From: an uncultured Lachnospiraceae bacterium
Lineage (GTDB): Bacteria; Bacillota; Clostridia; Lachnospirales; Lachnospiraceae
Length of the DNA: 64,000 nucleotides
Direction of reading: 5' to 3'
Assembly: GCA_934376945.1 (NCBI GenBank)
Contig: CAKRPI010000002.1
Span: 1 to 64,000 of the forward strand
The notes under the pieces were generated by a model. That model saw only the letters and a list, made by a program, of their open reading frames with translations. It did no database searches and was not told where the DNA came from. This document shows positions 5,858-45,034 of this stretch, in pieces (within the stretch, counting starts at the first letter, position 1; every line of letters begins with the position of its first letter). Position numbers and translations under genes: made by a program.

Positions 5858-7984
5858 ATGAGAGTATTGCTGGTTGGAAACACAGGATATATTACAGAAG
5901 AATTTTTGGAGGAGGCATTTCCGGAGAGCCGGGTATTGATTCTTGGAGATGCTATGGTGAAGACAAATCGGAAAAAGGGCTGGGTGCATCAGCCGTTCCC
6001 GGAAACCGAGGAGGAACTATGTGATCTTTTCATGACTTGGGAATTTGAAGAGACGGTCTTTTTTTCAAATTATCTTACCTTTCATAACAGCGCGGAGGGT
6101 GAAACGGAAAAACTGCGCAGAGTGCTTCAGTATTGCAGAGAAAATCCGAAAATGCGGATTTTATATCTGGCGGGACCGGAAGGGATGTACGATAAAGTAA
6201 CAGGAAAAACGTTGCTTGTCTGTGAAGCAGAGGAGCTGTGCCGGAAATATGCGGACCTGCACAAAATCTGTGTGACAACGGTGCGTCTGCCGTATTTGTA
6301 TTCCGGTATTTATGAAAAGGATTATTTTTATCGGCTTTTTGAGAAGATGGAAGAACAGAAAACAATCTCGTTTTCGGAATATCCGGAGCAGGGATTGTTT
6401 TTTCTGAATCTTATGGATCTGGCAGCGCTTCTTTATAAAATGACGGATGACTGGGATGCGGGGACGCAAATCTGGAATGTGCCATATGTTTTTTTGGAGA
6501 CCTTTGGGGATCTGGAAAAGGAGCTGCGCAGACAGAATCATACCGTTCGGATTGAATGGAAAAGGGAAGCTGTTCAGGAAATGATCACACCGGATGATAA
6601 AAAGGTGCGTTACCGCTATGGGTGGTTTCCGAAGATTTCGGTTCTGGAAGAATTACCGGAGCTGTACGGGCAGTTTCTGGTAAAGACAAGCCGAAGGCCT
6701 GGAAAGCTGGAAATAATCCGGCAGAATTTGGAACGGTACAAACGTATCTGGCAGATGGCTGAATTTATTCTGGGATGTCTGGCATTTGAACTGCTGATCC
6801 GGCTGCTTGGAAACAGTGCACAATTTAAAATGATTGATCTGCGCCTGGTCTGCATTCTGTTGTTTGGCAGTCTTTATGGGATTAATTATGGAATTGCAGC
6901 AGCTGCAGTCGAGACGGTTTCGCTGCTTGCTGCGTATCAGGAGCAGGGAACGGGCTGGCAGACACTCTTCTATGAGCCTTCGAACTGGATTCCGTTTATT
7001 TTTTATTTTGCAGTCGGCTCGATCTGTGGCTATATACAGATGAAAAATCGGGAAAACAATACATTTATCCGCAGAGAAAGTCAGCAGATGGAAGAAAAAT
7101 TCCTTTTTATCCGTGAACTGTATCAGGAAACGCTTCAGGATAAGCGGATGTACAAAAAACAGATACTGGGCAGCCAGGACAGCTTCGGGAAAATTTTTGA
7201 TATTACCCGTAAGCTGGATGTCGTACAGCCGCAGGAGCTGTATCTGGAGACACTTCAGATCATGGAAGAGGTATTGGAAAATAAGAGCTTTGCTTTTTAT
7301 TCTGTCAGGAACAGAAATGGTTTTGGGAGGCTGGAGGTCGCATCCGGCGAAATGCGCAGTGTATTTCCAGGTTCTATTCGGATCACAGATTTCAGAGAAG
7401 CACTGGAAACGCTGGAGAGGGGCGAGGTGTGGGCAAACCGGAGGCTGCTTACCGGATATCCGGCGTATCTGGCCGGAATACACAGAAACGGAGAACTCGT
7501 CATGCTGATCTGTATTCAAAGGGCAGGCAGTGAACAAATGACGCTATATTATCTGAATCTGTTTAAAGTGTTGTGTGGTCTCGTAGAAACTGCGCTGCTG
7601 CGCGCAATGGAATATCAGGAAGCCGTGGAGTACCGGCAGTATCTTCCAAATACACGTATTTTAAAAACCGAATATTTTATGGAGCGGCTGAAGCTGTTCC
7701 ATACGATGCGCGAAAAACAGCTGGCTTCCTACGTGCTGTTGGAGCTGTTGCATCCGGAAATGACGCTGGAGCAGGCAGATATCAGGCTTCAGAAGCTGGT
7801 GCGTACAAATGACATATGGGGAATTTCGGAGGATCAGCAGCTGTTTCTGATTCTTTTCCAGACGGAGGTGTCTTCTATGTCTGTCGTGCTGGAGCGTCTT
7901 ACCCATGCGGGCTTTGTGTGCAGGAGTATTGATGAACCGCTTCAATCAGGAAGTGTGCTGCCTGAGAAGGGAAGTGACAGATAA
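5858..7984 (+). CDS. pelD: PelD-like c-di-GMP receptor with N-terminal epimerase-like domain
   Basis: A 708-residue inner-membrane protein. Residues 1 to ~275 resemble an NAD-dependent epimerase (GNTGYITEEF nucleotide loop at residue 7) but without a clear YxxxK pair. Residues ~298-390 hold four hydrophobic segments, then a charged coiled coil to ~437, a GAF-like region to ~590, and a degenerate GGDEF domain. In the last, R649-T-N-D652 is an RxxD inhibitory site, five residues before EDQQL where GGDEF should stand. So c-di-GMP binding is expected to be kept and synthesis lost, as in known PelD proteins. Its place at the head of a pelE-pelA-pelF-pelG string supports the call. TAA overlaps the ATG of the next gene. 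Confidence 0.8.
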   Translation: MRVLLVGNTGYITEEFLEEAFPESRVLILGDAMVKTNRKKGWVHQPFPETEEELCDLFMTWEFEETVFFSNYLTFHNSAEGETEKLRRVLQYCRENPKMRILYLAGPEGMYDKVTGKTLLVCEAEELCRKYADLHKICVTTVRLPYLYSGIYEKDYFYRLFEKMEEQKTISFSEYPEQGLFFLNLMDLAALLYKMTDDWDAGTQIWNVPYVFLETFGDLEKELRRQNHTVRIEWKREAVQEMITPDDKKVRYRYGWFPKISVLEELPELYGQFLVKTSRRPGKLEIIRQNLERYKRIWQMAEFILGCLAFELLIRLLGNSAQFKMIDLRLVCILLFGSLYGINYGIAAAAVETVSLLAAYQEQGTGWQTLFYEPSNWIPFIFYFAVGSICGYIQMKNRENNTFIRRESQQMEEKFLFIRELYQETLQDKRMYKKQILGSQDSFGKIFDITRKLDVVQPQELYLETLQIMEEVLENKSFAFYSVRNRNGFGRLEVASGEMRSVFPGSIRITDFREALETLERGEVWANRRLLTGYPAYLAGIHRNGELVMLICIQRAGSEQMTLYYLNLFKVLCGLVETALLRAMEYQEAVEYRQYLPNTRILKTEYFMERLKLFHTMREKQLASYVLLELLHPEMTLEQADIRLQKLVRTNDIWGISEDQQLFLILFQTEVSSMSVVLERLTHAGFVCRSIDEPLQSGSVLPEKGSDR

Positions 7985-8874
7985 TGGAGACAAAGCTTGG
8001 GTTTTTGTTTTTGCTCCTGCATCTGCTTGTCTGTGTGCTGATCTGGATGGGGATACGGACGCAGATATTGAAGGTGAAACGGTATCTGATACCTTTGGTA
8101 ATCTTCGTTCCGTTTTGGGGCGCGCTCTGTGTATTGGTTTTACATTTGCAGCTGGGGATTGGTGCCGAAAATGTCAGAATGGCAGATGCGGAGAAGCTGA
8201 AGGTAAACGAAGAACTGTATAAAAATATATTTGTTTCCAGGGAGAAGGAAGAAGCTGTCGTGCCGCTGGAGGATGCGCTGCTTTTAAATGAGGCGGGCGT
8301 GCGGCGGGAACTGATCATGGATGTACTCAATGATGATCCGGGAGCATATATGGAGCTTTTGAAAAAAGCGCGGATGAATGATGATGTTGAGGTTGTCCAT
8401 TATGCCATCACAGCAATGGTGGAATTGTCAAAGGATTATGATTATCGGCTGCAGCAGTTTGAAAAAGAATATGCAAAAGACCCGGAGAATCCAAAGGTAT
8501 GGAAGGAATATTGCGATTTTCTGGAGGAATATCTGGAACAGGGATTGCTGGAGGCGCAGATGGAACAGCTGCAGCGGCGGCAGTTTACGCAGCTTCTGCA
8601 AAAGAGGCAGAAGCAAAAACCGGAACTCCATACGAGCATTTGCCTTGTTGAAAACCTGCTGAAGCTCAAAGAATATGCGCAGGCGGATCAGGTGCTTCGG
8701 TTTATGCGAAAGCGCTGGTATCGCAGAGAAGAGTACTGGATTTTGTATGTACAGTATTGTGTGGACCAGAAGCTGGGACGTGAACTCTCACTAGTGCTTG
8801 AGGAAATGAAGCATGCGCATATTTATCTGTCATCGAAAGGAAGGGAGGCACTGGCTCTTTGGCTGGAGGAATAA
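7984..8874 (+). CDS. pelE: PelE-like membrane/TPR protein
   Basis: A 296-residue protein with two N-terminal membrane helices (about residues 5-23 and 33-55) followed by an all-helical, TPR-like cytoplasmic region rich in E, Q, R and L. This is the build of PelE, the synthase complex scaffold that links PelD and PelF at the inner membrane. Sequence conservation in PelE is low, so the call rests on architecture and on position between pelD and the deacetylase. Its ATG overlaps the pelD stop by one base, and its end overlaps the next start, which indicates translational coupling. Confidence 0.65.
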   Translation: METKLGFLFLLLHLLVCVLIWMGIRTQILKVKRYLIPLVIFVPFWGALCVLVLHLQLGIGAENVRMADAEKLKVNEELYKNIFVSREKEEAVVPLEDALLLNEAGVRRELIMDVLNDDPGAYMELLKKARMNDDVEVVHYAITAMVELSKDYDYRLQQFEKEYAKDPENPKVWKEYCDFLEEYLEQGLLEAQMEQLQRRQFTQLLQKRQKQKPELHTSICLVENLLKLKEYAQADQVLRFMRKRWYRREEYWILYVQYCVDQKLGRELSLVLEEMKHAHIYLSSKGREALALWLEE

Positions 8875-10700
8875 AAACGATCAGAGAATTTCGGTTGAAA
8901 GGGATGCTTGTGGTGCTGTTGGTATTTCTGCTGATCGGTGCTGTGCTTTGGGCAGAGCGCTCCGGTATTCGTTATCAGGAGCAGGCAAGGCAGATCACTT
9001 ATATGGAGCCTGGAAAGGTCGTGACCGAAAAAGAGGCGGTAAAAGCATTGAAGACAACGTGTCTGGTGCTGACGGACAGCGCTCAGGAGAGCAGTGTGCA
9101 GGCATGGCCGGAATTTGAGCGGATGTTTATGGACATGCGGATCGGAATTGAGAGGGTGGATGTATCGGCCAGGGAGATTCCGGAGTTTTCTTTGTATGAA
9201 ACAGTCGTTGTACTGCTTTCTGATCTGAGTCCGCTAAAGGAAGAACTGCCGGCACTTGCAGCGTGGGTGGAGCAGGGAGGAAACGTTATGTTCGCATTGA
9301 CGCTGCAGAAGAATACGTATGTATCGCTGATTGAGCAGAAGCTTGGCATTCTTTCATCAGGCTATGAAAATGTGCTGGTGGATCGGATTTATTTTGAACC
9401 GGATTTCCTGCTTGGAGGAGGAAGGACCTATGGTATTACCGATGGTTATGATTCGGCGTGGGAGGTAGAGCTGGATGAAAAGGCGACGGTCCATGCGCGG
9501 GCGAAGGATGCAGAGGGCACTCCGCTGATCTGGGAAAACACCTATGGTAAGGGAAAATTTGTTGTAGACAATTTCGGTTTGTATGAAAAAGCAACGAGAG
9601 GATTTTTTGCAGCCTCCTACAGTCTTCTTACCGATGCGGGTGTTTATCCGGTGATCAATGGATCTGTTTTTTATCTGGATGATTTTCCGTCTCCGGTTCC
9701 GTCCGGTGACGGAACGTATGTAAAGAGAGATTATGGTACGAGCATCAGGGATTTTTATACAAATATCTGGTGGCCGGATATGCTTACCCTGGCAGAAGCG
9801 CATGGGGTACGATATACAGGCGTGATGATTGAAAATTATGAGGATGATACGGATGGAACAATTGAACAGCCTGCCGATACGGAACGGTTTCAGTATTTCG
9901 GAAATATGCTGCTGCATAATGGAGGGGAGCTTGGATATCATGGATACAATCATCAGCCCCTTAGCCTTTTGGATATGGATTATGGCGATGTACTTCCTTA
10001 TAAGACATGGGACAGTGAGCAGGCAATGGATCAGGCGGTGACAGAGCTGATCCGCTTTGGAAAGGAGCAGTTTCCGGTGACAACACTGTCTGTCTATGTG
10101 CCACCGTCCAATGTGCTTTCAGCCGGAGGAAGAGAGCTTCTGGCATCAAAATATCCGGAAATCCGGACCATTGCCAGCAACTATTTTACCGGAGAATTTG
10201 CATATGTACAGGAATTTGAGGTTGCAGAGGACGGGATCGTTGAGCAGCCGCGGATTATTTCCGGTGCAGTCCTTGATGATTATATGCAGATGGCAGCGCT
10301 TTCTGAACTGAATATGCATTTCGTCAATACTCATTTTATGCATCCGGATGATCTGCTGGACGAGGATCGCGGAGCGGCACTTGGCTGGGAGAAATTAAAG
10401 AATCGTCTGGAAGAATACATGTCCTGGCTGGATGCATCTGCGCCCGGCCTGCGCAGCCTGACCGGTTCGGAATTGTCCGGAGCCATTGAACGTTATGGCG
10501 GTCTGACGGTGGAGAAGGAAATTACTGACCGGGAGATTTTGCTGCGACTTGGGAATCTGTATGAGACGGCATATCTGTTTGTGCGGATCAATCAGGGTAC
10601 ACCGGGGACAGTGACAGGAGGCAGCCTGACACATCTGACCGGAAAGCTGTATCTGCTTTGTGCACAGTCTGAAGACGTTGCGATAGAGCTGGAAAAGTAA
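8859..10700 (+). CDS. pelA: PelA-type polysaccharide deacetylase (DUF2194-like)
   Basis: A 613-residue membrane-anchored extracellular protein. One membrane helix at residues ~15-33 precedes a Rossmann-like region and a polysaccharide deacetylase domain with the catalytic pair D274-D275 (FYLDDFPSP) and the metal ligands H361-x3-H365 (HGYNH). It should remove N-acetyl groups from the nascent polymer outside the membrane. As in Gram-positive Pel loci, the glycoside hydrolase domain of the Pseudomonas PelA is missing. The start is a TTG at 8859 with GGGAGG ten bases before; it lies inside the end of pelE. A later ATG at 8904 would cut the signal anchor. Confidence 0.75.
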   Translation: MAGGIKTIREFRLKGMLVVLLVFLLIGAVLWAERSGIRYQEQARQITYMEPGKVVTEKEAVKALKTTCLVLTDSAQESSVQAWPEFERMFMDMRIGIERVDVSAREIPEFSLYETVVVLLSDLSPLKEELPALAAWVEQGGNVMFALTLQKNTYVSLIEQKLGILSSGYENVLVDRIYFEPDFLLGGGRTYGITDGYDSAWEVELDEKATVHARAKDAEGTPLIWENTYGKGKFVVDNFGLYEKATRGFFAASYSLLTDAGVYPVINGSVFYLDDFPSPVPSGDGTYVKRDYGTSIRDFYTNIWWPDMLTLAEAHGVRYTGVMIENYEDDTDGTIEQPADTERFQYFGNMLLHNGGELGYHGYNHQPLSLLDMDYGDVLPYKTWDSEQAMDQAVTELIRFGKEQFPVTTLSVYVPPSNVLSAGGRELLASKYPEIRTIASNYFTGEFAYVQEFEVAEDGIVEQPRIISGAVLDDYMQMAALSELNMHFVNTHFMHPDDLLDEDRGAALGWEKLKNRLEEYMSWLDASAPGLRSLTGSELSGAIERYGGLTVEKEITDREILLRLGNLYETAYLFVRINQGTPGTVTGGSLTHLTGKLYLLCAQSEDVAIELEK

Positions 10701-10713
10701 AGGAGGGTGGAGC

Positions 10714-12141
10714 TTGAAGATCTGTCTGATTCTGGAGGGATGTTATCCTTATGTATTTGGTGGTGTATCAACGTGGATGCATCAGTACATCAATCAGATG
10801 ACAGAGCACGAATTTGTGCTCTGGGTTATCGGCGCCAATGCAAAGGATCGGGGCAAATTTGTGTATGAGCTTCCCAAAAATGTAACGGCGGTGTATGAGG
10901 TATTTCTGGATGATGCGCTGAAAATAAAGGCGGCCGGAAAAATGAGACATCGGTTTTCGGTTCAGGAAACGGACAGTCTGCGGGAGCTTATGATCTGCGG
11001 AAGACCGGACTGGGAGGTACTGTTTTCTTTGTATCAGGAAAAAAGGATGAATCCGATGTCCTTTTTGCAAAGTGAAGAATTTTTGAATATTTTAACGGAA
11101 TCCTGTCTGAAGCATTATCCATATATCGCATTTGCGGATGCTTTTCACACAATGCGTTCCATGCTGCTTCCGGTGCTGTATCTTCTGGGAACACAAGTGC
11201 CGGAGGCAGATGTTTATCATGCAATTTGTACCGGATACGGGGGGATGCTGGCGTGCCTTGGCGGCTGGCGTTATCAGAAAAAGGTATTGCTTACGGAGCA
11301 TGGGATTTATACACGGGAAAGAGAAGAGGAGATTATCCGTGCAAAATGGGTGGTTCCATCGTTTAAAAAGCAGTGGATTTCCTTTTTTTATATGCTTTCT
11401 GATATTATTTACCAGCGGGCTTTTTTGGTGACCTGTCTGTTTACAAATGCAATGCAGATACAGATTCAGATGGGATGCGATGCCAGAAAGTGCAGGGTGA
11501 TTGAAAACGGCATTCACTACGAGCGGCTTTCAGGGATTCCGCTCAAACCGGAGGATGATTGGGTGGATATCGGTGCGGTCGTACGGCTCGCACCGATTAA
11601 GGATATCAAAACGATGATTTATGCATTTTTTGAGCTGTCTATGAGAAGGCAGAGAGTGCGGCTGCATATTATGGGCGGTGTGGATGATGAAGAATATGCG
11701 GCAGAATGCCATGCACTTGTGGAACAGCTGAAGCTGGAAAATGTGATTTTTACGGGGCGTGTGGATATTATCTCTTATATGGAAAGGCTGGATTTTACAA
11801 TTCTTACCAGCATATCGGAAGGTCAGCCGTTGTCGGTGCTGGAATCTTTTGCAGCGCGCCGCCCATGTGTAACAACGGATGTCGGCTGCTGCAGAGAGTT
11901 GCTTTGTGGAAGGGCAGGAGATTCCTTCGGGGAGGCAGGCTACTGTGTGCCGCCTATGTACCGGGAAGGGCTGGCGGCAGCAATGGAAAAAATGTGCGCA
12001 TCGCGAGCCAGAAGGCTTCGCATGGGGGCAAATGGACAGGCAAGGGTAAAGGCTTATTATCGCCAGGAGCGTATGATCAAAAAATACCGGGAACTGTATG
12101 AGGAGGTGAAAGGTCAGTGGCAGGAATCGGATTTGAACTGA
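10714..12141 (+). CDS. pelF: PelF glycosyltransferase (GT4)
   Basis: A 475-residue cytoplasmic glycosyltransferase expected to polymerise UDP-activated N-acetylhexosamine into Pel. The start MKICLILEGCYPYVFGGVSTW is the hallmark of PelF. The DUF3492-type N-terminal domain includes TEHGIYTREREEE; the C-terminal GT4 domain has VVRLAPIKDIKT, FTGRVDI and the E-x7-E donor-site segment SEGQPLSVLESFAARR. It starts at TTG 10714 with AGGAGGGTGG before it, and its last 25 bases overlap pelG. With pelG it is the clearest marker of the locus. Confidence 0.92.
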   Translation: MKICLILEGCYPYVFGGVSTWMHQYINQMTEHEFVLWVIGANAKDRGKFVYELPKNVTAVYEVFLDDALKIKAAGKMRHRFSVQETDSLRELMICGRPDWEVLFSLYQEKRMNPMSFLQSEEFLNILTESCLKHYPYIAFADAFHTMRSMLLPVLYLLGTQVPEADVYHAICTGYGGMLACLGGWRYQKKVLLTEHGIYTREREEEIIRAKWVVPSFKKQWISFFYMLSDIIYQRAFLVTCLFTNAMQIQIQMGCDARKCRVIENGIHYERLSGIPLKPEDDWVDIGAVVRLAPIKDIKTMIYAFFELSMRRQRVRLHIMGGVDDEEYAAECHALVEQLKLENVIFTGRVDIISYMERLDFTILTSISEGQPLSVLESFAARRPCVTTDVGCCRELLCGRAGDSFGEAGYCVPPMYREGLAAAMEKMCASRARRLRMGANGQARVKAYYRQERMIKKYRELYEEVKGQWQESDLN

Positions 12142-13580
12142 AAAAGCTGTTTAAAAGAAGAGGACTGTTTGCGGCATTTCGTGCATACGGCTATGCAGGA
12201 ATTGTATGTACCGGGCCGATGCTGCTTGGGATCGTGCTGCTGCTTGGAATCATGTATTTGTGTGATGCAACGGGAGCCTCCCGGCAGAGTAGGGAGCTGC
12301 TTGTCTGCATGATTACGTATACACTGCTTGCTTCGTTGCTTGTAACGAGCTTTCTCTCTATGGTAGTGACGCGATTTATTGCTGATATGCTTTATGAGGA
12401 ACAATATGAGGCGGTACTGCCGTCTTTTTGGGGATCGACCGCGCTGATGCTTGTGGCAGGAGGCGTGCTGTATGGCATTTTTCTGCTTTTTTCAGGAGCT
12501 ACGTTGGTGGAAGGACTTCTGATGCTTTGGCTGTTCGGAGAACTGGTCGTGACCTGGAATGCAATGAGCTATTTAACAGCGATCAAGGATTACAGGGGAA
12601 TTCTGCTTTCCTTTCTGACCGCAATTGTTGTGACCTTTGTGACAGGCTGGCTGCTGCTGTATCTTGGAGTGCCGCATGTGGTCGGCCTTCTGATGGCAGT
12701 GTCGGTTGGTTATGGAATCATGCTTTTGTGGGATGTTATTTTGCTGTATCGATATTTTCCGCAGAGGGATTTCGGTGCTTTTTTATTTCTGCGATGGGTG
12801 GATGAGTTTCTTCCGCTTGCATTTACGGGTTTGTTTGTTAACATTGGATTGTTTGCGCATCTTGTTATCATGTGGATGGGACCGATTCGGGTACAGGTGA
12901 AGGGATTGTTTTATGGCGCGCCTTATCATGATGTCCCGGCACTGGCTGCCTTTCTGACAATTCTTGTGACAACGGTCAATTTCGTTGTATCGGTCGAGGT
13001 TAATTTTTATCCGAAGTATCGGAATTACTACAGCCTGTTCAATGACGGCGGCGCGATCGGAGATATTATGCAGGCAGAAGAGGAAATGCTCCAGGTGCTT
13101 GGTATGGAATTGAAATATACGGCGATCAAGCAGCTTTTGACAACGGCACTTGCAATTTCTGTGGGTGGGATTCTGATCGGATATCTGCCGTTTGGTTTTA
13201 ATGATCTGATGGAAGGCTATTTTCGGACTCTTTGTGTTGGCTATGGCATTTATGCAGTGGCAAATACGATGCTTCTTCTTTTGCTGTATTTTACGGATTA
13301 TGAGGGAGCAATGGTATCTGCTGCGGTGTTTGCAGGTCTGACTTCACTTTTTACGGTGGTGTCCCTGCAGTTTTCGAAGGTATATTTTGGATTTGGCTTT
13401 TTGCTTGGAAGTGCATGCTTCTTTTTCATTTCAGCAGTTCGGCTGAATCATTTTACAAGGAAGCTGCCATATTACATTTTAAGTACTCAGCCGGTGACGG
13501 CAGAAGAAAAGAGTGGTTTGTTTACAGGACTTGGGAAGTACCTGGATCAGAAACTGGATCAGAAAGTGGAAAGGAGATGA
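12117..13580 (+). CDS. pelG: PelG membrane transporter
   Basis: A 487-residue polytopic membrane protein of the polysaccharide flippase (MOP) type with about twelve hydrophobic segments. The opening MAGIGFELKKLFKR and the following YGYAGIVCTGPM are characteristic of PelG, which carries the Pel polymer across the membrane with PelD, PelE and PelF. The GTG start at 12117 lies inside the end of pelF, with AGGAGG at 12101-12106. The stop is four bases before the next start, so the operon continues into the CotH gene. Confidence 0.92.
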   Translation: MAGIGFELKKLFKRRGLFAAFRAYGYAGIVCTGPMLLGIVLLLGIMYLCDATGASRQSRELLVCMITYTLLASLLVTSFLSMVVTRFIADMLYEEQYEAVLPSFWGSTALMLVAGGVLYGIFLLFSGATLVEGLLMLWLFGELVVTWNAMSYLTAIKDYRGILLSFLTAIVVTFVTGWLLLYLGVPHVVGLLMAVSVGYGIMLLWDVILLYRYFPQRDFGAFLFLRWVDEFLPLAFTGLFVNIGLFAHLVIMWMGPIRVQVKGLFYGAPYHDVPALAAFLTILVTTVNFVVSVEVNFYPKYRNYYSLFNDGGAIGDIMQAEEEMLQVLGMELKYTAIKQLLTTALAISVGGILIGYLPFGFNDLMEGYFRTLCVGYGIYAVANTMLLLLLYFTDYEGAMVSAAVFAGLTSLFTVVSLQFSKVYFGFGFLLGSACFFFISAVRLNHFTRKLPYYILSTQPVTAEEKSGLFTGLGKYLDQKLDQKVERR

Positions 13581-13584
13581 AAGC

Positions 13585-15354
13585 TTGAAACGAAACAAAA
13601 CAGTCGGAGGACTTTTACTGTCAGCGCTGATCATCGGGCTTTGCAGCGGCTGTTCAAAAGATCGTTTCGGAGCGGAGACGGAGATTGTGGAAGCGTTGCC
13701 CGCAATTGAAAAGGAAGCGGTCAAAAGCATCAATGAAACGCATCTGAGAGATAAGAAGACCTTGTATGAAACGGATGATGAGGACGGCGTAATTACGATG
13801 TATCTGACCGTTTCAAGGGGAAACAGTTCAGAAAATACGGACCACTCCTGGGAAGAGATCAACAGCTATTCTGTGTATGACTATGAGGAGATGGGGGTCG
13901 ACCGTTATCAGGTAAATGGACTTTTGCAGGTCGGAGATGAGGACGGACCGGCAGCAGGAGAAGTCGGCTATGGGGAAAGCGTACCGAATGCGACCGTGCA
14001 GATCCGTGGACAGACCTCAAGCCGGAATGCACAGAAGAACTATAAAATCGAATTGAAAAAGAATAAGGGAATGTGGCGTGGTCAGCGGACGATCAATCTG
14101 AATAAGCATATGGGAGAGGGGCTGCGGTTTCGAAATAAGCTTTCCTACGATCTGATAAAGACGGTACCGCAGATGATCGGTCTTCGGACACAGTTTATCC
14201 ATCTGTATGTAAAGGATCTGACAGAGGGTACAGATGCGGTGTTTGAGGATTATGGTTTGTATACACAGATAGAACAGCTGAATAAGAGAGCGCTGAAAAA
14301 TCACGGACTGGATGTAAACGGACAGCTGTACAAGATCAACTCATTTGAATTTTATCGCTATGAGGATGTTATACGGCTGCAGGAAGATCCGGAGTATGAT
14401 CAGAAGGCATTTGAAAAATTGCTGGAAATTAAAGGGGATTCGGATCACAGGAAGCTGATTGATATGCTCAATGCGGTCAATGATAATTCCATTCCGATCA
14501 ATACGGTGCTGGATGAGTATTTTGACCGGGAGAACCTGACTTACTGGATGGCATTTCAGATTCTGACCGGAAATGTGGATACGCAGAACCGGAATATGTT
14601 TCTCTACAGTCCGCTGAATTCTGATACGTGGTATTTTCTGGACTGGGACAATGACGGCAGCTTTATGCGTCCGGAATATGCGGTGACCGGTTTTTCTGAC
14701 CAGGGTAGCTGGGAGATCGGCGTCAGCAACTACTGGGGGAATGTACTGTTTCAGCGCTGCCTGAAGTCAGAATCCTTCCGGGAAGAACTGAATGCAGCGA
14801 TTTTGGATCTGAGAAGTTCCTTTACCTTGGAACGTCTGCAGGCAATGGTTGCTGGATATCAGGCAGTTGTAAAGCCGTATGTGTATACGATGCCGGATCA
14901 GATGAATGCACCGCTTACGGATACACAGTATGATGCGATTGCGGAAGCCCTTCCACAGGAAGTGGAAAATAATTATCAGCTCTATCTGGAAAGCCTGAAA
15001 CGTCCGATGCCATTTTATATCGGAGTGCCTAAGACAGACGGGGAAAAGCTTGCATTAAACTGGGATGTGTCGTTTGATTTTGATGCAGAGGATATTACTT
15101 ATACGGTTGAGGTGGCAAAGGACTATCTGTTTGAGCATGTAATCTTCCGTCAGAGCGGTCTTCAGATCCCGGAAGCAGAGCTGGCACTGCCAAAGACAGG
15201 ACAGTATTTCGTGCGGGTACGGGCGGAAAATGCGTCCGGCTATACGCAGGATGCATTTGATTATTATGTGACGGATGAAGGAAAGCACTATGGGATGCTG
15301 TGTTTTTACGTTACAGCAAACGGTACGATTGAGGAAGATACGTATGAAGAGTGA
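13585..15354 (+). CDS. CotH-like kinase lipoprotein
   Basis: A 589-residue exported lipoprotein. The N-terminus MKRNKTVGGLLLSALIIG leads to the lipobox LCSGC, so the protein is probably acylated and held outside the membrane. It then carries a CotH-type kinase fold: IRGQTSSRNAQKNYKIEL, a middle segment with NRNMFLY, and the metal-binding DWDNDGSF. A C-terminal fibronectin-like region follows (about residues 490-575). CotH proteins phosphorylate spore coat proteins; here the target is unknown. Start is TTG 13585 after AGGAG, rather than an earlier in-frame start inside pelG, because only this start yields the lipoprotein signal. It overlaps the VTC gene by 11 bases. Confidence 0.82.
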   Translation: MKRNKTVGGLLLSALIIGLCSGCSKDRFGAETEIVEALPAIEKEAVKSINETHLRDKKTLYETDDEDGVITMYLTVSRGNSSENTDHSWEEINSYSVYDYEEMGVDRYQVNGLLQVGDEDGPAAGEVGYGESVPNATVQIRGQTSSRNAQKNYKIELKKNKGMWRGQRTINLNKHMGEGLRFRNKLSYDLIKTVPQMIGLRTQFIHLYVKDLTEGTDAVFEDYGLYTQIEQLNKRALKNHGLDVNGQLYKINSFEFYRYEDVIRLQEDPEYDQKAFEKLLEIKGDSDHRKLIDMLNAVNDNSIPINTVLDEYFDRENLTYWMAFQILTGNVDTQNRNMFLYSPLNSDTWYFLDWDNDGSFMRPEYAVTGFSDQGSWEIGVSNYWGNVLFQRCLKSESFREELNAAILDLRSSFTLERLQAMVAGYQAVVKPYVYTMPDQMNAPLTDTQYDAIAEALPQEVENNYQLYLESLKRPMPFYIGVPKTDGEKLALNWDVSFDFDAEDITYTVEVAKDYLFEHVIFRQSGLQIPEAELALPKTGQYFVRVRAENASGYTQDAFDYYVTDEGKHYGMLCFYVTANGTIEEDTYEE

Positions 15355-16093
15355 GGATAAACGGGAAGTCTACCGGAATGAGTGGAAATATCTGATCAGC
15401 AGTTCAGAAAAAGAGCTTCTGAAACTTCAGCTGAAACAGTTTCTTATGCCGGACCCACATGCGAAGGACGGTGAGTATCAGATTCGAAGCCTGTATTTTG
15501 ACGATTACTGGAACAGCGCCTTTGAAGAAAAGGAAGCGGGTGTACTTGTGCGAAAAAAGTATCGGATCCGTATTTATAATTACAGTGATGCATCGATCCG
15601 TCTGGAGCGGAAGAAAAAGTTCGGAAGCTATATTTATAAGGAAAGTGCACCGCTGACCCGCCGTGAAGTGGAATGGATTCTGGATGGATATTATGATTTT
15701 TTGCTGAAAAGTCCGTATGCTCTTTGCCGGGAATTTTATATTGAATGTATGAGTCATATGATGCGTCCGCGTACGATTGTTGACTATGACAGGGAACCGT
15801 GGATCATGGATGTCGGGACGGTGCGGATCACCTTTGATTCCGATGTCCGGGCGGCGATCGGAGGGTTTGATATTTTTGATGTGTCTCTTCCGACGCTGCC
15901 GGTGCTGGAACCGGGCAAGCTTGTACTGGAAGTCAAGTTTACGGAGCTGCTGCCACAGCTTGTGAGAAATGTTCTTCCGCCTCAGGCATCGGAATTTACC
16001 GCAGTATCGAAATATGTGCTGTGTTATGAAAAGACAAGATATCTGAATGGGTTTGAATACTGGTATGAGACAGAGGAGAGGAAAATAAAATGA
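15344..16093 (+). CDS. VTC domain protein (polyphosphate polymerase type)
   Basis: A 249-residue cytoplasmic protein of the VTC/triphosphate-tunnel fold. Visible elements are RNEWKYLI near the N-terminus, IRSLYFDD, the basic tunnel strand VRKKYRIRIYN, LERKKK and the acidic strand LVLEVKFTELLP. Relatives in yeast make polyphosphate from ATP; bacterial members usually sit with CotH and DUF4956 genes, as here, and their role is unproven. The ATG at 15344, preceded by GAGGAAG, is chosen over an upstream ATG at 15275 that lies deep inside the CotH gene. Ends in ATGA, shared with the next start. Confidence 0.82.
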   Translation: MKSEDKREVYRNEWKYLISSSEKELLKLQLKQFLMPDPHAKDGEYQIRSLYFDDYWNSAFEEKEAGVLVRKKYRIRIYNYSDASIRLERKKKFGSYIYKESAPLTRREVEWILDGYYDFLLKSPYALCREFYIECMSHMMRPRTIVDYDREPWIMDVGTVRITFDSDVRAAIGGFDIFDVSLPTLPVLEPGKLVLEVKFTELLPQLVRNVLPPQASEFTAVSKYVLCYEKTRYLNGFEYWYETEERKIK

Positions 16094-16761
16094 GTGTAAG
16101 GGATATGATAAAAAAATCAGTACTGGAATCCGGGGTGTTCAATCAGTACAATGTTTCTGGAATTGCGGTGGCACTGATCGCAGCGCTGCTTCTTGGAGCA
16201 TTAATTTATTTTATTTACCGGAAGTTTTATGCAGGTGTTATTTATTCCAGGAGCTTTGCTGTGACACTTGTCGGAATGACAGTGCTGACGTGTATGGTAA
16301 CGCTGGCAATCAGCACGAATGTCGTTATTTCGCTTGGTATGGTCGGTGCTCTGTCCATTGTGCGTTTCCGTACGGCGGTAAAGGATCCGCTGGATCTTTT
16401 GTATCTGTTCTGGGCGATCACCTCCGGGATTACAGCCGGTGCAGGAATGTATGCACTGGCACTGCTGGCGGCGGCTATTATGATCGCAATGATTTATCTG
16501 TTTTATCACAGACAGCAAAAGGGCCGGATTTATATTGCAGTGATTCATTACCAGGGGGATGCGGCCGGAGATGCAGTGATTCGCTGCCTGGGAAAGCGAA
16601 AGTACTTCATCAAGTCAAAAACGATGCGCAGGGAGCGAACAGAGCTGGCAATTGAGGTATTCTGTAAAACGAACGACTGTGATTTTACAGAGAAAATGCG
16701 GGGAATTCCAGGAGTGGAGGATGTGACACTGATTCAGTATAATGGAGAGTATCATGGCTGA
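16090..16761 (+). CDS. DUF4956 domain membrane protein
   Basis: A 223-residue protein with four hydrophobic segments between about residues 18 and 135, including VISLGMVGALSIVRFRTAVKDPLD, whose SIVRFRTAVKDP stretch is the conserved core of DUF4956. The C-terminal ~85 residues form a soluble alpha/beta domain. No activity is known; the constant partnership with VTC and CotH proteins suggests a membrane partner of the VTC polymerase. The ATG overlaps the VTC stop (ATGA), and its own end overlaps the next gene by 8 bases. Confidence 0.8.
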   Translation: MSVRDMIKKSVLESGVFNQYNVSGIAVALIAALLLGALIYFIYRKFYAGVIYSRSFAVTLVGMTVLTCMVTLAISTNVVISLGMVGALSIVRFRTAVKDPLDLLYLFWAITSGITAGAGMYALALLAAAIMIAMIYLFYHRQQKGRIYIAVIHYQGDAAGDAVIRCLGKRKYFIKSKTMRRERTELAIEVFCKTNDCDFTEKMRGIPGVEDVTLIQYNGEYHG

Positions 16762-18118
16762 AAAACGAAGATGGCTGCTTCTTGTTGGCACATTGCTGGT
16801 AGTGGCGGCTTGGCTGTTTGCAGAAATGGTGAAGGGATCCGTACGGATGGTAAGAAAGACGTATGAACGATCCGGGGAGGTGTTTGGCAATCCGCTGATG
16901 GGTTACGCACCGCCGGCGTGGTACGAAGAAGTGACGGATGATATACAGCTTTTGTATATGGACATCACATGGGCAGAACTGGAGCCATGGGAGGGAGTCT
17001 ATGACTGGTCGGCGATTGAAGAGGAAAATCAGACAGAGCGCTGGAAAAGGGAAGGGAAGCATCTCGTTTTGCGCTTTGTCTGTGACATTCCGGGCGATGA
17101 GTGTCACATGGATATCCCCAAGTGGCTGTATGAAAAGACCGGAGAAGCGGGCACCTGGTATGACGGAGAATATGGAAAAGGCTTTGCACCGGATTATGAC
17201 AATGAGATCTTTATTGCCTGCCATGAGCAGGCAGTTGCAGCGCTTGGCGCACATTTCGGACAGGATGGGCTGGTTGCATATGTGGAGCTTGGCAGTCTTG
17301 GGCACTGGGGAGAATGGCACGTGAATTATGAGGAAGGGATTCCGTGTATTCCAAAAGAGGCAGTGCGGGATCGGTATATTGCGCCGTGGATTCTGGCTTT
17401 TCCAAAGGCAAAGCTGTTGATGCGGCGTCCGTTTCATGCGGCGGAGCGTTATGGGATGGGACTGTACAACGATATGGCAGGACACGCAGAGGCGACGGAG
17501 GAATGGCTTGGATGGATCCGTGAGGGCGGCGATTATGGGCAGGCTGCGGAAGAGGATGCATTATCGGTGATGCCCGATTTCTGGAAGGGTGCACCGTCCG
17601 GCGGAGAACTGACAAGCTCTGTTTCGATGAAGGAGCTGCTTGATACAGGGCTGGATGAGACATTGCGGCTGGTAAGGGAATCTCATACGACATTTCTTGG
17701 ACCGAAGATTGCGGATATGATGTATCCGAAAGGATATGAAGCGGTGCTTGGGCAGATGGGCTACCGCATCTGGATTCCTGGTGCAGAGCTGAAAACGCGT
17801 AAAGATAAGACGGTACTCAGTCTGACATGGGAAAACGATGGGATTGCACCATTTTATGGAAGCTGGCCGGTGTATGTGTATGTCGAGACGGATGAGGGAG
17901 AGCTGGTGGAGAAGAAAATGGTTGATATTCAGCTTTCATCGCTGATTCCTGGTATGCAGATCAGAACGGATACAATGCTTACGACAGAGAATCTGCAGAC
18001 GCTTGCAGGGAAAGCATATCGGATCTGGCTTGGCGTGGAAGACCCGATGACACAAAAACCACAGCTTAGACTGGCTATGGATGTACTGTACGAAGGTGGA
18101 AAAAACCGGTTGTTGTAA
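16754..18118 (+). CDS. DUF4832-like secreted glycosidase-fold protein
   Basis: A 454-residue exported protein with a membrane anchor at residues ~8-25. The body looks like a TIM-barrel glycosidase: NPLMGYAPP, MDITWAELEPWEGVYDWS (family-typical entry strand), LRFVCDIPGDE, and YVELGSLGHWGEWH with a likely acidic catalytic residue. The last ~110 residues form a beta-sandwich. This matches the DUF4832 (with DUF4874) type. Since the PelA protein here lacks a hydrolase domain, this last gene of the operon may supply the polymer-trimming activity; that is inference. Start 16754 has GGAG six bases before; an ATG four codons earlier is possible. Confidence 0.72.
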   Translation: MAEKRRWLLLVGTLLVVAAWLFAEMVKGSVRMVRKTYERSGEVFGNPLMGYAPPAWYEEVTDDIQLLYMDITWAELEPWEGVYDWSAIEEENQTERWKREGKHLVLRFVCDIPGDECHMDIPKWLYEKTGEAGTWYDGEYGKGFAPDYDNEIFIACHEQAVAALGAHFGQDGLVAYVELGSLGHWGEWHVNYEEGIPCIPKEAVRDRYIAPWILAFPKAKLLMRRPFHAAERYGMGLYNDMAGHAEATEEWLGWIREGGDYGQAAEEDALSVMPDFWKGAPSGGELTSSVSMKELLDTGLDETLRLVRESHTTFLGPKIADMMYPKGYEAVLGQMGYRIWIPGAELKTRKDKTVLSLTWENDGIAPFYGSWPVYVYVETDEGELVEKKMVDIQLSSLIPGMQIRTDTMLTTENLQTLAGKAYRIWLGVEDPMTQKPQLRLAMDVLYEGGKNRLL

Positions 18119-18280: not shown

Positions 18281-18976
18281 CTAAGGAAGAATGTAGGATT
18301 CGCCCAGGCTCTTTATTTCTCCGTCCATTGAGCCAAGAAGCGCAAGACCGATCTTACGCGCAGCGATCACTGCAGCTTTAACAGCGGTTGTTTCACCGGA
18401 CAAAGCGACAATGACTTCATTGGAATGGCTGGTTCCTTCATTCGGAGTCATATATCGGATGACCTGCACGTCGGCAGTTTTTACCGCAGTATCTGCCATT
18501 ACCATGCCGATTGCAGCTGGGGAACCGCAGATAAAACCGAACGCTTTTCCGTGCGGAATGCCAAAGGCAAGTCCGAGCGCCTGATCTGCCCTTGGAGAAA
18601 AGGCCAGTTCCAGGTGTCCGGCGCTGCTGACGTATATTTCCCCTGCATTTCTTTTTGTTTTTTCAAGTGTGATCTCAATTGCTTTTCGGGCATCGGCTAC
18701 GGTCCTTGCTTCAAGTACGATATAATTTCCGTGACCGCCCCAGCCCTTTGTATCACGTGGGAGCATGATAGAATGTACTTTTGTATTCGTTTCCTTGACA
18801 GCATCATCGACAGCCGTGATCTGGCCGGCAGCACCTGTTCTGGAGCTTAGAATTCCGATGCTATGATACGGCTCCTCCAGTTTCATTTTTTCACGAAGAG
18901 AAGGATCTACATTGGCAATGACAAGGCCAATTGTATCAAGTATTGTGGTTCCTACAAGTTCAGGTATTGTATTCAT
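18281..18976 (-). CDS. pduB: Orphan PduB-like microcompartment shell protein (BMC-T)
   Basis: A 231-residue tandem BMC-domain protein that should form pseudohexameric trimers in a bacterial microcompartment shell. Recognisable PduB segments: LVIANVDPSLREKM, EEPYHSIGILSSRTGAAGQ, LPRDTKGWGGHGNYIV, SAGHLELAFSPRADQAL, GKAFGFICGSPAAIG and NEVIVALSGE. On the minus strand AGGAAAAG precedes the ATG. It stands alone between intergenic repeats, with no enzymes or other shell genes within view, so it is either a satellite shell gene for a locus elsewhere or a relic. Confidence 0.85.
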   Translation of the reverse strand: MNTIPELVGTTILDTIGLVIANVDPSLREKMKLEEPYHSIGILSSRTGAAGQITAVDDAVKETNTKVHSIMLPRDTKGWGGHGNYIVLEARTVADARKAIEITLEKTKRNAGEIYVSSAGHLELAFSPRADQALGLAFGIPHGKAFGFICGSPAAIGMVMADTAVKTADVQVIRYMTPNEGTSHSNEVIVALSGETTAVKAAVIAARKIGLALLGSMDGEIKSLGESYILP

Positions 18977-31503: not shown

Positions 31504-33330
31504 ATGGATATTTTCAGTATTTTGACAATGATCGGCGGTCTGGCCCTGTTTCTTTATGGAATGAATGTTATGGGGGACGGACTGACGAGAGCATCGGGCG
31601 GACGGCTTGAGAAGATTCTGGAAAAACTGACGTCAAGCACCTGGAAGGGAGTACTGCTCGGAGCAGCAGTGACAGCGGTTATTCAGTCCTCTTCCGCGAC
31701 TACAGTTATGGTAGTTGGTTTTGTAAACTCCGGCATTATGACGCTGCAGCGTGCGGTCGGAATTATTATGGGAGCGAATATCGGTACGACGATCACTTCC
31801 TGGATTTTAAGTCTTTCCGGACTTCAGGGAGACGGCTTTATCATCAAAATGCTGAAGCCGACCTCGTTTTCCCCAATCCTTGCGATCATTGGCGTCTGTC
31901 TTCTTCTTTTTTCCAAAAAAGACAAGAAAAAAGATGCCGGTTCGATCATGATCGGTTTTGCAGTTCTGATGTTTGGAATGGAGACGATGAGTGGGGCAGT
32001 AAAACCGCTTGCAAATGTGCCTGAATTTACAAATCTTCTTCTGATGTTTAAAAATCCGGTGCTTGGTATGCTCGCAGGTACAGTTCTTACTGCAATCATC
32101 CAGAGTTCCTCAGCGTCCGTTGGTATTCTGCAGGCACTTTGTGTGACGGGAGCGGTCTCTTATGGAGCTGCGCTCCCGATTATCATGGGCCAGAACATCG
32201 GAACGTGTGTGACTGCGCTGATTTCCGCGATCGGAGCAAAGAAGAATGCCAAAAGAACAGCATTCGTACATCTCTACTTCAATCTGATCGGTACCATTGT
32301 ATTTATGATTCTGTTTTATGCACTGAATTGCTTTGTACATTTTGAATTTCTGGGCGATGCGGCAAATGCAGCCGGAATTGCAGTGGTGCATACAACGTTC
32401 AATGTGTTTGCAACTGTAATGTGGATGCCGTTTCATCGCTTTCTGGAAAAACTGGCGATTCTTACGGTACGCGATGGGAAAGAAGAAGAACGGACCGAAG
32501 GTGCGCTGGAAGGATTGTCCGCACTGGATGACCGATTTCTGGATAATCCGGCGCTTGCAATGGATCAGTGCCGCGTGGCATGTGCACATATGGCAAAGAT
32601 TACGATTGAGGCACTTGATACTGCAATGTCACTTTTGAATCTGTATGATGAAGAAAAAGCAGAAGTGGTGTATGAGGATGAAAAGATTATAGACCGCTAT
32701 GAAGATCGGCTGGGAACTTATCTGGTACAGGTGGCAAAAAACGAAATGCAGACAAAGGACAGCCATACGCTTTCCGTATTGCTGCACAGCATTGGTGATA
32801 TTGAGCGAATTTCTGACCATGCGGTTATTATTGCACGCTCGGCGAAGGAAATTTATGACAAAAACCTTGCATTTTCCGAAGCAGCGGCGGCAGAGCTTGA
32901 GGTATATTCCTCTGCGGTGCGTAAGGTGGTGGAAATTGCAATGAATGCAATGCAGAAGGAAGATCTTGCAATGGCGGGCAGAGTAGAGCCGTTGGAAGAG
33001 GTGATCGATGACCTGAGCGATGAGATGAAAAAACGTCACATAGACCGATTAAGAGAAGGTCGTTGTACGATTGAGCTTGGATTTATTTTGTCGGATCTGA
33101 CCACAAGCTATAAACGAATCGCAGATCATTGCTCTAATATCGCAGTCTGCCTGATCCAGGCAGATAATGATGAGTATGGAAGACATGCATATCTGAATTC
33201 TCTGAAAGACGAAGACAATCAGTCATTCCGTGAAAAATTTGAGGAATATTCCAGAATTTATGCGCTTCCGGTGCGTATTAAAGGAACGCCGAAGGTGGAT
33301 ATGAAAAAGAGGATGGCAGCTGCGCAGTAA
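31504..33330 (+). CDS. Na/Pi cotransporter family protein with PhoU domain
   Basis: A 608-residue protein. The N-terminal ~310 residues hold two NptA-type membrane repeats, each with the QSSSA core (VIQSSSATTVMVVGFVN and IIQSSSASVGILQALC) and the GANIGTT/GQNIGT reentrant segments. The C-terminal ~220 residues are a PhoU-like helical domain with HSIGDIERISDHAVIIA and SYKRIADHCSNIAV metal motifs. It should import phosphate with sodium, with the PhoU part sensing or gating. Its own Pho box and its position before the regulator genes fit a low-phosphate role. Confidence 0.92.
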   Translation: MDIFSILTMIGGLALFLYGMNVMGDGLTRASGGRLEKILEKLTSSTWKGVLLGAAVTAVIQSSSATTVMVVGFVNSGIMTLQRAVGIIMGANIGTTITSWILSLSGLQGDGFIIKMLKPTSFSPILAIIGVCLLLFSKKDKKKDAGSIMIGFAVLMFGMETMSGAVKPLANVPEFTNLLLMFKNPVLGMLAGTVLTAIIQSSSASVGILQALCVTGAVSYGAALPIIMGQNIGTCVTALISAIGAKKNAKRTAFVHLYFNLIGTIVFMILFYALNCFVHFEFLGDAANAAGIAVVHTTFNVFATVMWMPFHRFLEKLAILTVRDGKEEERTEGALEGLSALDDRFLDNPALAMDQCRVACAHMAKITIEALDTAMSLLNLYDEEKAEVVYEDEKIIDRYEDRLGTYLVQVAKNEMQTKDSHTLSVLLHSIGDIERISDHAVIIARSAKEIYDKNLAFSEAAAAELEVYSSAVRKVVEIAMNAMQKEDLAMAGRVEPLEEVIDDLSDEMKKRHIDRLREGRCTIELGFILSDLTTSYKRIADHCSNIAVCLIQADNDEYGRHAYLNSLKDEDNQSFREKFEEYSRIYALPVRIKGTPKVDMKKRMAAAQ

Positions 33331-37607: not shown

Positions 37608-37681
37608 GTGCGTTTAGCTCAGCTGGATAGAGCGTTTGGCTACGGACCAAAAGGTCGGGGGTTCGAATCCTCTAACGCACG
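37608..37681 (+). tRNA. tRNA-Arg (ACG)
   Basis: A full cloverleaf: acceptor GTGCGTT with AACGCAC, D stem GCTC/GAGC, anticodon arm TTTGG-CTACGGA-CCAAA with anticodon ACG, variable AGGTC, T arm GGGGG-TTCGAAT-CCTCT (GTTCGAATC core) and discriminator G. The A34 of the anticodon should be edited to inosine to read CGU, CGC and CGA. CCA is not encoded. Confidence 0.96.
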
Positions 37682-43282: not shown

Positions 43283-45034
43283 ATGGATGAATTAAAAGCA
43301 TTGGCAACCAGTGTAGATATTGGGTGGATTCTGCTTGGTGCGGCACTCGTATTTTTTATGCAGGCCGGATTTGCGATGGTAGAAACCGGTCTGACGCGAG
43401 CAAAGAATGCCGGAAATATCGTCATGAAGAACTTGATGGATTTCTGTATCGGTACTCCGATTTACTGGTTTATCGGCTTTGGCATTATGTTTGGAGGCAC
43501 CGGGGCACTTTTTGGTGGAATTGATCTGTTCTGCCTGAAACAGGATGATTATGCGACGATGATTTTTCAGACAGTTTTCTGTGCAACGTCTGCAACCATT
43601 GTTTCCGGAGCAATGGCAGAGCGAACAAAGTTTTCATCTTACTGTGTTTACAGTGCGCTGATCAGTTTGTTCGTGTATCCGATTTCCGGACACTGGATCT
43701 GGGGCGGCGGTTGGCTGCAGAGTATGGGCTTTCATGATTTTGCAGGGTCAACGGCAGTTCATATGGTAGGCGGTGTCGCTGCATTTATCGGAGCAACAAT
43801 TCTTGGACCAAGAATTGGAAAATATGATAAAGATGGGAAACCGAATGCAATTCTCGGTCACAGCATGACACTGGCGGCACTTGGTGTGTTTATTCTCTGG
43901 TTCTGCTGGTTCGGATTTAATGGATGTTCTACAGTAGCTCTCTCAGGAGACGGAGCAGTAAATGCAGCAAGAATTTTTTATACTACAAATCTCGCTGCAG
44001 CAATAGCAACGGTTACCGTGTTGATTATTACCTGGGTGCGTTATAAGAAGCCGGATGTTTCGATGACGCTCAACGGTTCTCTGGCCGGCCTTGTGGCGAT
44101 TACGGCAGGCTGTGACACGGTTACTCCGGTAGGAGCTGCCCTGATTGGTTTTCTGGCTGGATTTGCAGTTGTATTTGGTATTGAATTTGTAGATCAGAAG
44201 CTGAAAGTCGACGATCCGGTCGGAGCAGTAGGGGTTCATGGAATCTGTGGTGCGACCGGTACACTTCTGACAGGTTTGTTTGCTTATTATGATTTTGGTT
44301 CAGGAGAAAAACTTGGAGTCTTTTATGGCGGAGGATTTAAGTTTTTCGGAATACAGGTACTCGGTGTGGTGGCCGTAATTGCGTGGGTTGCTGTTACAAT
44401 GACGATTATTTTTACAGTTTTGAAAAAGACAATTGGTCTGCGTGCATCTGCCACAGAAGAAATAGAAGGTCTTGATATTCATGAGCATGGTTTGGCGTCT
44501 GCATATGCAGATTTCGCGCTGGCTTCCAGCATCAATAACTTCAGCGGAAGTGCTTTTGGTTCTGATGCTTCTGTTTCATCGATATCGGCAGCCGGAAGAG
44601 AAAAACAGGTTTCGGAAGAGGATGCGGTGCCGGTACAGCTTCGGATGGAAACAACTCCTGTTGCCAGTGATACACATCTGACAAAGATTACGATTATTGC
44701 AAAGCAGAGTAAATTTGACGATCTGAAAAACGCATTGAACAGTATTGGCGTAACCGGAATGACTGTGACAAATGTACTTGGCTGCGGCATTCAGAAGGGA
44801 AAGGCTGAATATTATCGAGGCGTTCAGATGGATATGAATTTGCTTCCGAAGATCCAGGTGGATGTGGTAGTCAGCAAAGTAGCACCTGAAAAAGTGATTC
44901 AGGCAGCAAAGAAAGCATTGTATACAGGCCATATCGGAGATGGAAAGATATTTGTATACAACGTTCAGAATGTAATTAAGGTACGGACCGGTGAGGAAGG
45001 ATTTGACGCTCTTCAGGGAGAGGATTTCTTCTAG
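43283..45034 (+). CDS. amt: Ammonium channel fused to a P-II regulatory domain
   Basis: A 583-residue fusion. Residues 1 to ~405 are an Amt channel with eleven expected membrane helices: FFMQAGFAMVETGL, the pore segment FAGSTAVHMVGGVAAFIG with the conserved histidine, and GVHGICGATGTLLTGLFA with the second. After a linker of ~55 residues, residues ~460-575 form a P-II (GlnB/GlnK) domain: TKITIIAKQSKFDDLKNAL, the T-loop GCGIQKGKAEYYRG, and GDGKIFVYNVQNVIKVRTGEEG. P-II normally plugs Amt when 2-oxoglutarate is low, so the fusion would be self-regulating. AGGAGG precedes the ATG. Its last 36 bases are copied downstream. Confidence 0.93.
   Translation: MDELKALATSVDIGWILLGAALVFFMQAGFAMVETGLTRAKNAGNIVMKNLMDFCIGTPIYWFIGFGIMFGGTGALFGGIDLFCLKQDDYATMIFQTVFCATSATIVSGAMAERTKFSSYCVYSALISLFVYPISGHWIWGGGWLQSMGFHDFAGSTAVHMVGGVAAFIGATILGPRIGKYDKDGKPNAILGHSMTLAALGVFILWFCWFGFNGCSTVALSGDGAVNAARIFYTTNLAAAIATVTVLIITWVRYKKPDVSMTLNGSLAGLVAITAGCDTVTPVGAALIGFLAGFAVVFGIEFVDQKLKVDDPVGAVGVHGICGATGTLLTGLFAYYDFGSGEKLGVFYGGGFKFFGIQVLGVVAVIAWVAVTMTIIFTVLKKTIGLRASATEEIEGLDIHEHGLASAYADFALASSINNFSGSAFGSDASVSSISAAGREKQVSEEDAVPVQLRMETTPVASDTHLTKITIIAKQSKFDDLKNALNSIGVTGMTVTNVLGCGIQKGKAEYYRGVQMDMNLLPKIQVDVVVSKVAPEKVIQAAKKALYTGHIGDGKIFVYNVQNVIKVRTGEEGFDALQGEDFF

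Follow-up and report, generated by a model that had tools for sequence, protein, structure and literature searches.

A Lachnospiraceae Pel operon with a CotH, VTC and DUF4956 tail, and the VTC-DUF4956 pair outside Pel loci

Introduction

What do a kinase-fold protein, a polyphosphate-polymerase-like protein and a membrane protein of the DUF4956 family do in an operon for an exopolysaccharide? The question is raised by nine plus-strand genes at positions 5858-18118 of contig CAKRPI010000002.1 from an uncultured Lachnospiraceae bacterium, of which the first 64,000 nucleotides were analyzed (hereafter, the window). The genes run in the order pelD, pelE, pelA-DA, pelF, pelG, CotH, VTC, DUF4956 and DUF4832, with a maximum gap of 13 bases. 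An earlier interpretation made from the nucleotide letters (the sequence-only reading) had taken them for a Gram-positive Pel operon whose tail may modify Pel or its anchor with phosphate or polyphosphate. The layout of the locus has been published before and is not novel. According to Whitfield 2020, pelDEADAFG of streptococci and clostridia is directly joined by genes for CotH, a polyphosphate polymerase, DUF4956 and DUF4832; the paper also states that such a gene set accompanies an epimerase domain on PelD, and it proposes a CotH-based regulation (PMC7112168). In Streptococcus intermedius, Raju 2025 deleted all nine cluster genes singly: aggregation and Pel required the five core genes, Pel decreased when the CotH gene was deleted and increased when the DUF4956-type gene was, and no such effect is told for deletion of the polymerase gene or the DUF4832 gene; the DUF4832 protein SIR_1591 was an active glycoside hydrolase, and a possible role of the accessory genes in phosphate metabolism was already raised (PMC12345266). 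What the present analysis adds is the separability of VTC and DUF4956 from Pel, the all-or-none presence of the tail genes after pelG, and the fusions of PelG with CotH.

VTC and DUF4956 form a pair that mostly stands apart from Pel

To define the surroundings of DUF4956, we surveyed 245 genomes drawn evenly from one class (that of G008). PelG was counted with a length limit, since the PelG model absorbs PelG-CotH fusions and labels CotH as PelG. DUF4956 was found over the cut-off in 122 of the genomes and PelG in 10, so that VTC-DUF4956 is an independent module in about half of the sampled genomes, and its function is better looked for independently of Pel. Among the matches listed, 149 DUF4956 loci lay over the cut-off (one below it was left out). 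In 144 of these 149 listed loci, VTC was a same-strand neighbor of DUF4956, and Pel genes were present in only five of the 149. Conversely, DUF4956 was found within 1.6 kb in 143/150 listed VTC matches, and a listed VTC was present in 121 of the 122 genomes with listed DUF4956, several of the exceptions being at contig ends. In control genomes, the same 3 of 14 contained both. VTC and DUF4956 are thus a near-obligate, separable pair that occurs mostly without Pel.

Of the 149 listed loci, 68 had CotH on the same strand no more than 3 kb away (63 without Pel in view and five with Pel). Among the listed loci without Pel in view, it was downstream of the pair in 52 and upstream in 11, and in these 11 CotH, VTC and DUF4956 were directly adjacent, in the same order as in Pel loci. 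L230, which belongs to these 11, probably represents the end of a Pel locus that was broken, as its genome (G118) carries pelDEADAFG-CotH at the end of another contig (L262); without it, ten adjacent trios with no Pel in view remain among the matches listed. Hence, CotH-VTC-DUF4956 does stand together outside Pel. This conflicts with a synteny statement of Raju 2025, which may have concerned a narrower genome set (PMC12345266).

Two other kinds of surroundings recurred. A Cthe_2159-type protein (PF14262), presumably of a secreted beta-helix family, was encoded within 3 kb in 44/149 listed loci (all among L113-L261; e.g. L127), only one of which also had CotH; judging from these loci, the module may do without a kinase-fold partner. 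Eleven loci that contain VTC, DUF4956 and CotH (L167, L169, L174, L180, L190, L193, L197, L198, L199, L203 and L204, the last with VTC and DUF4956 not adjacent) also held weakly GH72-like, HEAT and GT2 synthase genes, and seven of the 11 a GGDEF-EAL gene. The GT2 synthase operon is likely another exopolysaccharide system that uses the module. It resembles NELoc-2 of Clostridium perfringens, where VTC, a 222-residue membrane protein ("tubulin") and CotH are encoded side by side, followed not by Pel but by a glycosyltransferase ("chitin synthase"), a HEAT protein and a 685-residue protein (PMC2879425); by its size and place, the "tubulin" is probably DUF4956.

In a FastTree tree of VTC-DUF4956 pairs labeled by locus type (L034 and L230 relabeled by hand as cut Pel loci), Pel-linked pairs made up 58 of the 203 rows, with five label changes and with long branches flagged. 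We draw from it only that Pel-linked pairs are mostly one lineage with a few gains or losses. Proteins joining VTC to DUF4956 were considered as proof of contact between the two and rejected: both domains were present in 7/120 listed matches to a joined query, and of these only P0247 (464 residues) was full length, while the other six (280-379 residues) may come from broken genes, which makes them weak evidence.

CotH and DUF4956 downstream of pelG: both or neither

How often the tail follows Pel was determined in 392 genomes of one order (that of G001), which contained 32 full-length PelG places over the cut-off in 31 genomes; a 33rd place, a fragment in G613, was left out. Judging the coordinates by eye, both CotH and DUF4956 stood just downstream of pelG in 12 of the 32, neither in 20, and one alone in none. 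VTC was also present in all four of the 12 loci for which DNA was fetched (L267, L269, L271 and L272), and none of the trio was seen in three of the 20 (L268, L270 and L273). The co-occurrence predicted from the single locus therefore extends beyond this genome. Of the ten PelG loci of the class sample, five had the trio, two (L262 and L265) had CotH with a cut frame after pelG, and three had no trio nearby. Among loci fetched with the window's own VTC, a set chosen by its likeness to the window, 52/59 were Pel or cut Pel loci; the closest locus found was L001, from a Lachnospiraceae metagenome-assembled genome, with 90% identity in VTC.

PelG-CotH fusions point to the outer face of the membrane

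The window CotH matches its family profile (cf. Table 1) and has an intact Asp/Asn/Asp set (D332, N337 and D355), which we take to be the catalytic residues; they were kept in 66, 67 and 67, respectively, of the 68 Pel-locus rows with a letter at the position. The protein may have kinase activity. The protein has one N-terminal transmembrane or signal helix, and its LCSGC motif is an atypical lipobox.

In relatives, PelG and CotH are fused in 54/69 matches (e.g. L026:4886-8179, L027:4959-8219, L028:4908-8177 and L034:124-3063; proteins P0121-P0175), and an internal lipoprotein signal is kept in 40 of the 48 full-length fusions. The literature searched for PelG together with CotH yielded, in the text available, no mention of such a fusion; likewise, no mention of it or of the module outside Pel was found in the available parts of PMC7112168. 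Since the fusions keep this signal, CotH is likely placed at the outer face, at the mouth of PelG, and they constitute sequence evidence for its place of action. The fused chain may be cut after export. Internal starts were also looked for in the four fusion loci with DNA. In L028, AGGAG stands five bases 5' of an in-frame ATG, a start that would leave out the basic stretch of the signal; Shine-Dalgarno-like words are present in L026 and L027, none of them, as judged by eye, suitably spaced from an in-frame start, and no such word was found in L034. In the fusion protein set, a Met precedes the lipobox by 8-22 residues in 15/40 internal signals. Because of these Met residues and the AGGAG-ATG of L028, re-initiation inside the fusion genes may take place instead of synthesis of a fused product.

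VTC resembles the yeast polymerase domain and DUF4956 ends in an ACT-like domain

The profile of the VTC family matched yeast Vtc4 (3g3q, 9.1e-23). K15, R74, R76, K90, K99, R150 and R161 of the window protein align with K200, R264, R266, K281, K294, R361 and R373 of Vtc4, so that the basic tunnel residues of the yeast enzyme are present; E426 lies outside the aligned stretch, and the comparison covers the other residues. In 48 sequences, six of the seven were invariant, and K99 was kept in at least 90%. In one study, Vtc4 was inactivated by R264A/R266A/E426N, and the yeast VTC complex is described as coupling synthesis inside to export across the membrane (PMC9911596). The bacterial protein differs from that complex in consisting of the polymerase domain only, with DUF4956 as a neighbor: in its 249 residues, PF09359 was the only domain found, with no SPX domain and no transmembrane helix, and VTC is therefore probably cytosolic. 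It is likely to synthesize polyphosphate.

An AlphaFold2 model of DUF4956 (pLDDT 88) comprises several membrane helices and, at its C-terminus, an ACT-like domain that resembles the end of MgtC, and the structure matches were to ACT and MgtC C-terminal domains. A second structure comparison aligned mainly residues 145-222 and barely covered the membrane part. R92 and R94, in a basic RFR stretch, are among the most conserved positions. Assignment of the protein to the MgtC family was rejected, as NF007431 scored 16.6 bits against a cut-off of 214 and only the ACT-like end matched MgtC structures.

The core is a Gram-positive Pel operon

It is near certain that the operon is a Pel locus. The GT4 glycosyltransferase PelF is encoded beside the exporter PelG, both with profile scores well over the cut-offs (cf. 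Table 1) and neither preferring an unrelated family, and the order pelD-pelE-pelA-DA-pelF-pelG is kept on one strand, as the sequence-only reading had it; pelD and pelE were assigned by alignment and position only. Searches of Pfam and NCBIfam named seven of the nine products (PelA-DA, PelF, PelG, CotH, VTC, DUF4956 and DUF4832). PelE had a single, uninformative Pfam match (ARL2_Bind_BART, 24.5 bits versus a cut-off of 23), and its assignment is supported by its position, its two transmembrane helices and homologues that adjoin PelD in related loci.

PelD had no Pfam match over the cut-off. Its alignment revealed a degenerate short-chain dehydrogenase/reductase (SDR) domain, hydrophobic helices in the middle and a degenerate GGDEF-like end; the naming of GAF and GGDEF regions follows PMC7112168. 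A profile of 23 homologues matched the UDP-glucose 4-epimerase 4zrm (1.3e-24, profile positions 6-280). An RxxD motif (RTND, residue 649) was kept in 18 of the 23 rows and missing in four streptococcal proteins and L266. The epimerase match and RTND show that the window PelD is of the SDR type, with SDR motifs that by eye are degenerate, and has a likely cyclic di-GMP site. In another locus, L262:2100-4337, PelD seems by eye to keep both GxxGxxG and YxxxK, and its epimerase domain may be active, unlike that of the window. A further variation concerns PelG, which in P0177-P0180, P0182 and P0183 is joined in a single chain to PelF-type domains (PF11997, some with GT4).

The closest described systems are the streptococcal and clostridial pel loci, which have the same accessory set contiguous with pelDEADAFG (PMC7112168), and in particular the cluster of S. 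intermedius, where pelDEADAFG and SIR_1594 to SIR_1591 comprise the same core with CotH, a polyphosphate polymerase, an MgtC/ACT membrane protein, a DUF4832 hydrolase and an SDR-type PelD (PMC12345266). By analogy with SIR_1591, the DUF4832 protein of the window may be an outer glycoside hydrolase. The streptococcal PelD lacks the GGDEF domain, whereas that of the window keeps a degenerate, RxxD-bearing one (PMC12345266). Bacillus cereus ATCC 10987 shares the five core genes and their order, but they are flanked by a hydrolase gene and a galE gene rather than by a CotH/VTC/DUF4956/DUF4832 tail, and its PelD is described with transmembrane, GAF and GGDEF domains only.

How the tail might work

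Given the gene content, residues, pairings and fusions observed, we consider that there is an even chance that the locus encodes a Pel synthase and exporter with CotH at its mouth and a membrane polyphosphate module. The operon would make and export a Pel-like polymer of the N-acetylgalactosamine type, polymerized inside by PelF and exported by PelG, with PelD (through its retained cyclic di-GMP-type RxxD site) and PelE completing the membrane complex, and with PelA-DA deacetylating and the DUF4832 protein trimming the polymer outside. CotH, its active-site residues intact, would sit where PelG opens to the outside and act there on the chain as it emerges or on partner proteins. At the inner face, VTC would use ATP to make polyphosphate, which DUF4956, the membrane protein almost always paired with VTC, would gate, regulate or export; the module would have been recruited to Pel loci in some lineages, to serve or restrain export. 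The link through polyphosphate, made inside and used by CotH outside, has its appeal, as it would provide CotH with a phosphate donor in a place without ATP, and, if true, it would explain how a kinase-fold protein works there.

Several observations weigh against this reading. Outside the cell, CotH would be without a known ATP supply. The internal lipobox could mean that CotH is cleaved off PelG, in which case the fusion would speak for a matched place and amount of the two and not for a lasting complex; the model of the fusion had a pTM of 0.55, and for this reason no geometry of the two domains was drawn from it. A rough motif scan detected a lipoprotein signal in 37/63 Pel-locus CotH frames of more than 350 residues, and in only 3/50 from CotH loci without Pel (2/9 in GT2 loci), which, together with the atypical lipobox of the window, argues that lipid anchoring is not general. 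Of the 149 listed module loci, 44 had Cthe_2159 near the pair and 38 had neither CotH nor Cthe_2159. The ACT-like end of DUF4956 is as compatible with a regulator as with a channel. Finally, no effect on aggregation or Pel is reported, in the available text, for the VTC deletion in S. intermedius, so the product of VTC appears not to be needed there for the amount of polymer (PMC12345266).

This silent deletion, unlike those of CotH and DUF4956, also argues against the covalent addition of phosphate or polyphosphate by CotH to Pel or its anchor, with VTC-DUF4956 as the supplier (PMC12345266). Intact CotH active-site and VTC tunnel residues agree with this mechanism, and the fusions favor the part of the sequence-only proposal that placed the action outside, near the exporter; nothing found shows a phosphorylated polymer, however, and most occurrences of the module lack Pel and many lack CotH. 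We therefore regard this mechanism as improbable, and phosphate on Pel as unlikely. A somewhat better, though still doubtful, case can be made for a regulatory role, in which VTC-DUF4956 would sense or spend nucleotide or phosphate and restrain the synthase in an MgtC-like manner, CotH would serve export proteins as their kinase or scaffold, and the polymer would carry no phosphate. The matches of DUF4956 to ACT and MgtC C-terminal domains and the raised Pel in its deletion (PMC12345266) fit such a brake as well, and CotH-based regulation had been suggested by Whitfield 2020 (PMC7112168); yet VTC keeps the tunnel residues, as expected for a polymerase, and a two-part brake should need VTC, the loss of which is silent (PMC12345266).

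That the cassette merely spread by co-transfer with no functional link to Pel is very improbable. Pel lacks the trio in 20/32 loci and the module lacks Pel in 144/149 listed loci, as expected for chance neighbors, but the strict joint presence of CotH and DUF4956 after pelG (12 both, none single), the overlapping genes and the PelG-CotH fusions speak against it, and the published effects of the CotH and DUF4956 deletions on Pel had already disfavored it (PMC12345266). A bolder extension of the polyphosphate module would make VTC-DUF4956 the bacterial counterpart of the eukaryotic VTC complex, passing polyphosphate out via DUF4956, with the CotH at the exporter mouth using polyphosphate instead of ATP as the donor to modify Pel or another exported polymer, and with the module serving other surface systems via CotH or Cthe_2159; we consider it a long shot, slightly less probable even than phosphorylation of Pel by CotH.

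Operon layout and neighboring genes

All nine open reading frames were confirmed as same-strand genes with overlaps or gaps of at most 13 bases (cf. Table 1), in agreement with what had been read from the letters. The eight junctions, in gene order, are -1, -16, +13, -25, +4, -11, -4 and -20 bases, figures that use two moved starts: TTG 13585 for CotH, preceded by a Shine-Dalgarno-like aaggag, and ATG 15344 for VTC.

Table 1. Genes of the Pel operon in the window, with the evidence for their assignment
Product	Coordinates	Strand	Features and matches
PelD	5858..7984	+	Degenerate N-terminal SDR/epimerase-like domain, membrane helices, GAF-like and degenerate GGDEF-like region with RxxD
PelE	7984..8874	+	Two transmembrane helices; putative helical domain
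PelA-DA, membrane-anchored polysaccharide deacetylase domain (DUF2194)	8859..10700	+	PF09960, 531.6 bits; solved relative 9zau, 1.1e-58
PelF, GT4 glycosyltransferase, Pel polymerase	10714..12141	+	NF038011, 320.5 bits (cut-off 100); PF11997
PelG, exporter	12117..13580	+	PF16933, 467 bits (cut-off 29)
CotH, exported kinase-fold protein, perhaps lipoprotein	13585..15354	+	PF08757, 263 bits; structure 5jd9, 1.7e-7
VTC, polyphosphate-polymerase-like (triphosphate tunnel) domain	15344..16093	+	PF09359, 109 bits
DUF4956, membrane protein	16090..16761	+	PF16316, 43 bits (cut-off 30.6); N-terminal helices and C-terminal ACT-like domain
DUF4832 protein, membrane-anchored	16742..18118	+	PF16116, 52 bits; one transmembrane helix

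No cyclic di-GMP riboswitch above the Rfam gathering score was found 5' of pelD, the sole match in the window being a tRNA (37608-37681); in seven related loci, the scan gave four matches, all to cobalamin, purine or glycine riboswitches and none to cyclic di-GMP. The next gene 3' of the operon (18281-18976) is on the opposite strand and encodes a BMC-domain microcompartment shell protein. Elsewhere, the window encodes a Na+/phosphate cotransporter with PhoU domains (31504-33330) and a P-II regulator domain fused to an ammonium transporter (43283-45034).

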